A stretch of 64,000 bases of DNA from Sandaracinus amylolyticus (GTDB lineage: Bacteria > Myxococcota_A > Polyangia > Polyangiales > Sandaracinaceae), in contig NZ_CP070225.1 of NCBI RefSeq assembly GCF_021631985.1, forward strand, positions 2,232,001 through 2,296,000. Reading direction: 5' to 3'. This document shows positions 38,628 to 58,405 of this stretch, piece after piece. Position 1 is the stretch's first letter; each line of letters opens with the position of its first letter. A program made the position numbers and the translations under genes. The notes under the pieces are model-generated. The model saw nothing but the letters and a program-made list of their open reading frames with translations, made no database searches and was not told where the DNA came from.

Positions 38628-38978
38628 CTACCCGCCGCAGCGCTGACGCATCCGCCAGAGCATCGCGAGCACGCGGTCGAGATCGCGATCGATCTCCTCG
38701 CACACGCCCGCGTCGAGGTGCCGGTACAGGCACGCGAATCTCAGCGCGCGTCGCAGCTCGCTCGCGCTGCCGGCTGCGGTCTCGATGCGCAGTCGTCGAT
38801 TGCCGCGCGCGTTGTGTCGCTGCTCGCCGAGATTGAGCAGCAGACTTCCCGCCGCGCGCTCGACCTGATCGGCCAGCCATCGACTGCGCAGCTTCAGCCG
38901 CTCTGCATTCTCGCCCAGTCGAGCGACCGCGCGTTCGGCCACCACCTCGACGTCCAGCACACCTTCGTTCCCGCTCAT
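38628..38978 (-). CDS. Four-helix-bundle (S23/IVP family) protein
   Basis: The 116-residue protein is helical, with the family core AGSLLLNLGEQRHNARGNRR followed by a GSASELRRALRFA segment, matching four-helix-bundle proteins encoded in 23S rRNA intervening sequences and scattered in genomes. A strong AGGAGG lies 6 bases before the ATG at 38978. Immediately upstream is a long G/C hairpin (38999-39045). On both sides are GAGGCCGAG-type hexamer tracts in opposite orientation, but these are not clear terminal repeats. It is the second such gene in the window. Confidence 0.78.
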   Translation of the reverse strand: MSGNEGVLDVEVVAERAVARLGENAERLKLRSRWLADQVERAAGSLLLNLGEQRHNARGNRRLRIETAAGSASELRRALRFACLYRHLDAGVCEEIDRDLDRVLAMLWRMRQRCGG

Positions 38979-39185: not shown

Positions 39186-39239
39186 GGCCTCGGACTCGGA
39201 CTCGGCCTCGGACTCGGACTCGGACTCGGACTCGGCCTC
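39186..39239. repeat. GGCCTC/GGACTC hexamer array
   Basis: Nine consecutive hexamers run 39186-39239, a mix of GGCCTC and GGACTC. The array begins 2 bases beyond the stop of the transglutaminase gene (minus strand) and carries no ORF of its own. Confidence 0.85.
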
Positions 39240-55596: not shown

Positions 55597-55701
55597 TACG
55601 AGGGGCCGTGCTCACCGTGGGGGAGAGAGCGCGGCGACGAGGGACGGGGACGCGAGGACGATCGACCAGGGACCCGTGAGCGCGGGCACCACGAGGTGAA
55701 G

Positions 55702-57702
<2,001 letters not shown>

Positions 57703-57709
57703 GCGAGAA

Positions 57710-57742
57710 GAAGCCCCGGGGTCGAGAGACCGCCGGGGCTTC
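57710..57742 (+). terminator. Intrinsic terminator after rpoD
   Basis: A perfect 10-bp stem GAAGCCCCGG/CCGGGGCTTC (57710-57719 and 57733-57742) with a 13-base loop begins 7 bases past the rpoD stop. The following GAGCTTCT is only moderately T-rich. Confidence 0.8.
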
Positions 57743-57759: not shown

Positions 57760-57816
57760 CCGAGCACGCGCAGGTGGCACGTGGACGAGCACGCGGGACG
57801 AGCACGTGCACGAGCA
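57760..57816 (+). repeat. Left terminal inverted repeat of the IVS-like element
   Basis: 57 bases beginning CCGAGCACGCGCAGGTGG and ending CACGAGCA. Its reverse complement matches the right arm at 56 of 57 positions. Internal ACGAGCACG words recur three times, so a folded transcript would form a very long stem. Confidence 0.9.
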
Positions 57817-57830
57817 GGCGGGCGCGGCGC

Positions 57831-58190
57831 TCAGGAAGCCGGGGTGCTGAAACGCGCGGCGCCCAGCTTGGTCAGCATTGCGACGACGCGCTCGATGAGT
57901 TGCTTGGCCTGGTCCGTGTCGACGCGCGCTTCGGGGATTCGCGCAATCACGTCGAGGAGCGCGCCGCACTCCATTGCTGAGCCACGAGCGATGCTCAGGT
58001 GGCGTCGCCGGTCGTCGCGCGTCGACCGGCCCATCGCTTCGGCGACGTTGAGCGGGATCGACGTCGCAGCGCGACGGAGTTGATCTCCGATCGGGCCGTA
58101 GCCACGGGGCACTCGGTCCGCGAGCACGAGCGCGAGCGAGAGGAAATCGAGTGACGTGCGGTACACATCGAGCCGTTCGTAGTCGAGCAT
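57831..58190 (-). CDS. Four-helix-bundle protein (S23/IVP family) inside the element
   Basis: The 119-residue protein starts MLDYERLDVYRTSLDFLSLA at an ATG at 58190 and has the core RRAATSIPLNVAEAMGRSTR followed by RRHLSIARGSAMECGALLDV. This matches the four-helix-bundle proteins encoded by 23S rRNA intervening sequences and by avd-like accessory genes of diversity-generating retroelements. These form pentameric bundles that may bind RNA or DNA. The biochemical role is not settled. It fills most of the 419 bp between the repeats and is on the strand opposite rpoD. No ribosome site is strong. Confidence 0.88.
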   Translation of the reverse strand: MLDYERLDVYRTSLDFLSLALVLADRVPRGYGPIGDQLRRAATSIPLNVAEAMGRSTRDDRRRHLSIARGSAMECGALLDVIARIPEARVDTDQAKQLIERVVAMLTKLGAARFSTPAS

Positions 58191-58235
58191 GCGGCCACCA
58201 TCGTCCGTGCCGCGGCGCCGGTGCCTGGGAACGCG

Positions 58236-58292
58236 TGCTCGTGCACGTGCTCGTCCCGCGTGCTCGTCCACGTGCCACCTGCACGTGCTCGG
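58236..58292 (-). repeat. Right terminal inverted repeat of the IVS-like element
   Basis: 57 bases beginning TGCTCGTGCACGTGCTCG and ending CACGTGCTCGG. It is the reverse complement of the left arm except for one base. It ends 39 bases before the tRNA gene at 58332. Confidence 0.9.
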
Positions 58293-58331: not shown

Positions 58332-58405
58332 GGGCCCATAGCTCAATCGGTCAGAGCTCCCCGCTCATAACGGGGCGTGTCCTGGTTCGAGTCCAGGTGG
58401 GCCTA
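58332..58405 (+). tRNA. tRNA with CAT anticodon (Met elongator or Ile2)
   Basis: The acceptor stem pairs GGGCCCA with TGGGCCT (first pair G-U), discriminator A58405. The anticodon stem CCCCG/CGGGG closes a CTCATAA loop, anticodon CAT. It is not an initiator: the end pair and the anticodon stem differ. Sequence alone cannot tell elongator Met from lysidine-modified Ile2. CCA is not encoded. The last three bases overlap the stop codon of the opposing small gene. Confidence 0.93.

Follow-up and report, generated by a model that had tools for sequence, protein, structure and literature searches.

A stretch of 64,000 nucleotides from Sandaracinus amylolyticus (contig NZ_CP070225.1, positions 2,232,001 to 2,296,000), hereafter the window, carries at 57760 to 58292 a hairpin whose loop holds a gene for a four-helix-bundle protein of the S23 (23S_rRNA_IVP) family. 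With a probability of about 0.6, this locus is a member of a class of small mobile hairpins in which the S23 gene occupies the loop and mirror-image degenerate hexamer arms form the ends. The class looks previously undescribed and appears to spread without encoding a recognisable DNA-moving enzyme. As judged from aligned genomes, such units are shown to be dispersed, their homology ends at the arrays, they are present or absent between close species, and their two arms remain complementary while changing in sequence. The route of movement and the binding of S23 to the arms are inferred. The features of the locus and its flanks are as follows.

57760 to 57820, no strand assigned: left hairpin arm, a degenerate 6-nt-periodic inverted repeat of CGWGSA-like units with 7-nt interruptions
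57821 to 58231, no strand assigned: inter-arm loop of 411 nt
57831 to 58190, minus strand: S23 four-helix-bundle gene
58232 to 58292, no strand assigned: right hairpin arm, an inverted copy of the left arm
57710 to 57742, plus strand: hairpin directly 3' of rpoD, read from the sequence, flanking and outside the element, kept in the sister species
55696 to 57702, plus strand: rpoD, flanking, its gene end 96% identical in the sister species
58332 to 58405, plus strand: tRNA-CAT gene, flanking

The initial annotation, made from the sequence alone, reported 56 of 57 matches between 57760-57816 and 58236-58292, and this count is exact; extension to the full 61-nt arms gives 59 of 61. It described the inverted pairing correctly but overlooked the 6-nt periodicity of the arms and the recurrence of the architecture across phyla. 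Complementarity of the arms is 97% in register and falls to 56% after a shift of one hexamer. The element starts 17 nt past the hairpin that follows rpoD and lies, as annotated, between rpoD and the tRNA gene. The only recognised gene between the arms, again as first read, matches PF05635 (62 bits against a cut-off of 33.8, E value of 6e-17) and the four-helix-bundle family TIGR02436. The longest open reading frame (57831 to 58271, GTG start) reaches into the right arm; the gene itself probably starts at the ATG with its first base at 58190, because the conserved residues begin at MLDYERLDVY, an S23 N terminus common to the window gene and the sister species. The predicted protein would thus have 119 amino acids and be encoded wholly within the loop. 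It is a basic bundle (isoelectric point of 9.5), and its AlphaFold2 model, built with 7 homologues, has a predicted local distance difference test score of 86. A Foldseek search with this model retrieved the free-standing S23 proteins XCC0516 (2GSC) and BT_0352 (2RLD), which are of the same family and fold, and the accessory protein Avd of diversity-generating retroelements (8UB7 and 4DWL). The TM-score by target was 0.85 for 2GSC and 0.70 to 0.80 for Avd.

The window genome (G000, 10.96 Mb) has 13 PF05635 places. Inverted repeats that span the S23 gene with a score of at least 30 occur at 9 of these 13 loci; among 468 control windows just 2 have one, and these come from a single place. Most S23 genes of this genome have arrays of 6-nt period within 1.3 kb, compared with 4 of 351 control windows. 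The array sequence varies among the loci (GCGTGN, GCGTCN, CCGAGN, GAGGGC, and others). Across the genome, (GCGTGN)4 has 79 matches, and every one of them is at one of three S23 loci; those on the left are forward and those on the right mostly reverse. Of the 31 matches to (CCGAGN)4, 29 lie at four S23 loci. The window itself holds a second, divergent S23 gene (38649 to 38960, minus strand; 29.3 bits, under the Pfam cut-off); a CCGAGN array lies to one side of it (about 39189 to 39235), and it has a weak 22-nt inverted repeat.

The same architecture recurs well outside this genome. A profile built from 7 closer S23 proteins and scanned over 84,980 species yielded 80 S23 loci, the top matches to a single S23 subfamily, towards which the sample is therefore biased. 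At a score of at least 16, a spanning inverted repeat was present at 59 of the 76 loci with usable flanks (one locus, L250, was excluded as an artefact of a run of N), compared with 2 of 380 dinucleotide shuffles, 46 of 903 cross-locus arm pairings and 1 of 354 control windows elsewhere on the same contigs. Together with the genome-wide patterns, these controls rule out chance or a low-complexity background. The loci belong, by their record titles, to at least nine phyla: Desulfobacterota, Acidobacteriota, Bdellovibrionota/Oligoflexia, Planctomycetota, Verrucomicrobiota, Kiritimatiellota, Lentisphaerota, Chloroflexota, and Myxococcota. Sorangium cellulosum So ceGT47 has arms of 129 nt with 126 matches. 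Self-identity of the arms is 0.69 at a lag of 6, with about 0.2 to 0.3 at other lags except 12, and lag 6 is the best in 55 of 58 loci. Phase-aligned over 58 loci, the 5' arm shows the motif C-G-T-R-N-T, that is (TCGTRN)n, at 3.23 bits (null maximum, 2.0) and with frequencies of.91 for C,.67 for G,.62 for the first T and.58 for the last; the units of the window arms (CGTGGA and CGAGCA, for example) are a loose fit to it. In register, the arms are complementary at 0.92, and sliding them by one hexamer lowers this to 0.72, a contrast somewhat inflated because the register is defined as the best diagonal; the irregularities are therefore mirrored in both arms. Searches of open-licence papers found no earlier report of hexamer arms around S23 genes.

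Mobility is indicated by repeated units. In the multicopy genomes G012, G007, and G053, a unit consisting of an array, an S23 gene or convergent S23 pair, and a second array recurs, with homology that stops at the array edges. The other open reading frames of three such units match no Pfam family above the cut-off. A mobile unit with no recombinase had been proposed for the window locus, and this proposal gains ground from the dispersed units, in which no recombinase-like gene was recognised. Directly after a stop codon, one G012 unit of 1159 bp corresponds to 13 bp in the congener G020, and this empty allele has no array. G012 has 16 S23 copies and G020 none. The element between rpoD and the tRNA gene is present in the window genome and its sister species (G001), whereas the congener G002 and the more distant G003, G005, G007, and G014 have a short spacer, so that the empty sites that the initial annotation had suggested looking for do exist in relatives.

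Convergent S23 pairs about 20 nt apart, lying between mostly direct 6-nt arrays, were seen at L133 to L138, L151, and L152 (in G012, G040, and G047). Elsewhere these genomes contain many solo arrays with the sequence of these arrays, as does G020, which has no S23.

The window arm is not unique to its locus, so that the outcome named in the initial annotation as a refutation (unique arms, with neither further copies nor empty sites) did not arise. It occurs at about 16 further loci of the window genome, either singly or paired with an inverted copy across a loop of 22 to about 470 nt, and none of these loci has an S23 gene. Several are orthologous between the window genome and its sister species, and two are cleanly present in one and absent from the other. 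For a 136-bp hairpin at G001:6591k, the window genome has 17 bp; over 118 bp this hairpin shares 92% identity with a window-genome hairpin at 988k. For an 88-bp arm segment at G001:215k, the window genome has 1 bp. The loops of two S23-less hairpins (L058, 1480 to 1660, and L063, 2100 to 2270) hold short tandem repeats of about 20 to 22 bp, e.g., CCCCGATCGAGCCATCGCATGG.

Near-identity of the arms had been taken as a sign of recent insertion, and this reading failed in the sister species, which has the element at the same site. The arms of the two species share only 45 of 71 positions, but pairing within each species covers 59 of 61 positions in the window genome and 58 of 60 in the sister species, so that the arms of each species are about 97% self-complementary despite their divergence. 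Mirrored arms are therefore no sign of recent insertion. Complementarity is thus kept up actively while the sequence changes, which needs either selection on the stem or copying from arm to arm.

Several observations weigh against a mobile hairpin class. No target-site duplication was seen at the G012/G020 junction or at two junctions between the window genome and its sister, all of them diverged sites, and no defined target sequence was found. Gain and loss of units are not strictly polarised, although S23 is absent from G020 and present in 16 copies in its congener G012. Arrays that flank the convergent S23 pairs of G012 are direct rather than inverted, 4 of the 13 S23 loci of the window genome lack a strong inverted repeat, and two gammaproteobacterial S23 loci have no arms. 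Finally, arm mismatches on the gene-sense strand comprise 82 G.U against 112 A.C (17 against 35 when counted by loci).

These last counts also bear on an unlikely alternative, in which the locus is a static RNA module: the RNA would form a hairpin around the S23 message, cleavage of its stem by RNase III or binding by S23 would control the expression of S23 or of its neighbour, and dispersal would be incidental. The gene-sense RNA of the region has a very stable predicted fold (−332 kcal/mol against −262 for shuffles, with a standard deviation of 6.6 and a z score of −10.6). RNase III excision of intervening sequences (IVSs) in Coxiella is a precedent (PMC4990558), the Avd fold occurs in a reverse transcriptase complex that contains RNA (8UB7), and the kept complementarity between species also fits. 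A sense-RNA stem under wobble-tolerant selection was nevertheless rejected, as the mismatches run in the opposite direction; with G.U not favoured over A.C, a sense-RNA stem is unsupported, and the basis may lie at the DNA level or be antisense. Regulation alone also leaves the discrete present and absent alleles and the dispersed units unexplained.

Homologous recombination is a less probable account, under which arrays arise by slippage genome-wide and S23 merely benefits, as gene conversion or unequal crossing-over carries S23 genes from one array to another. The solo arrays common in the G012 family, including G020 with no S23, and the direct arrays on both sides of convergent pairs would fit. 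Against this, arrays and S23 came or went jointly at the G012/G020 site, two array families of the window genome are almost confined to S23 loci, and the arms are mirrored in register.

It is similarly improbable that the hairpins are nonautonomous elements moved by an unlinked transposase, for instance of the HUH/Y1 or REP (repetitive extragenic palindromic) type, that acts on the arms, with S23 as an accessory or passenger. This idea draws on the REPIN/RAYT system (PMC3116915), with which the S23 hairpins share one gene flanked by inverted arms and many dispersed short paired-arm hairpins, and on the lack of any other recognised gene in the examined units. RAYT is a transposase, whereas S23 is a four-helix bundle of no recognised catalytic family, and no RAYT-like gene lies between the arms, S23 alone being recognised in the loop and in the dispersed units. 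Moreover, the arms are hexamer arrays that vary by locus even within one genome, unlike the fixed ends read by a transposase. Miniature inverted-repeat transposable elements (MITEs) are likewise short, with inverted ends and with derivatives comparable to the S23-less hairpins; the S23 hairpins differ from them in that their terminal sequence is not fixed and that no target-site duplication was observed.

If the locus is instead a copy of a mobile hairpin class, a route can be proposed in which the basic S23 bundle would bind and chaperone the hexamer repeats, whether these are single-stranded or folded into a stem. The folded strand could then be copied into intergenic sites by host replication or repair functions or by a trans-acting enzyme. 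Hairpin-templated copying of one arm onto the other would renew arm identity, and hairpins that share these arms but lack S23 would represent the nonautonomous form.

One of the nearest known layouts is that of the 23S rRNA IVS, likewise a stem-loop of about 0.4 to 0.5 kb with an S23 gene in its loop. IVSs with an S23p open reading frame, as in Coxiella burnetii, have been called selfish elements, and their mobility was proposed in the past (PMC4990558). IVSs lie within helix 45 of the 23S rRNA, whereas the hairpins described here lie outside rRNA, have 6-nt-periodic arms and are multicopy in several genomes. No rRNA was found at the 54 S23 loci scanned; an insertion in 23S rRNA is thereby rejected, and the defining feature of an IVS is absent despite the IVS-like layout. 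This bears out the initial annotation of a free-standing element, while the copies within 23S genes that it suggested looking for did not appear at these loci. The 23S rRNA IVSs may themselves be members of the class that landed in rRNA and became tolerable there through RNase III excision.

A role as an accessory of diversity-generating retroelements was ruled out despite the shared fold and homologous family of Avd (4DWL and 8UB7; PMC10053308), since no RVT_1 gene lies within 100 kb of the S23 loci of the window genome and the S23-rich genomes G035, G040, and G047 have no reverse transcriptase at all. Phage origin was rejected as well (no phage match, and two plasmids only). The sister species has 8 near-equal-scoring intact RVT_1 genes (L296 and others) that are missing from the window genome.

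To our knowledge, no function has been assigned to S23/IVP proteins, although structures have reportedly been solved since 2006. The tie between free-standing S23 genes of many phyla and mirror hexamer arrays offers a concrete candidate substrate for the protein and a candidate mobile element without a recombinase; it may also explain where rRNA IVSs came from and give the Avd fold a context other than reverse transcriptases. One S23 structure, 2GSC, is a homopentamer of four-helix bundles (PMC4990558). A bolder proposal, doubtful but worth stating, would see these hairpins, from at least nine phyla, as mobile DNA of a new category: their sole product would be a noncatalytic, ring-forming S23 protein that reads a 6-nt periodic code in self-renewing mirror arms, and their movement would rely on host enzymes alone, with IVSs as special cases.

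In a plasmid of Picosynechococcus sp. PCC 7003 (L300, NZ_CP016476.1), an S23 gene is flanked by cas10 and a cmr3-type gene within a type III-B CRISPR (Cmr) operon. The inverted repeat there is weak at most, and this S23 is possibly a domesticated member.
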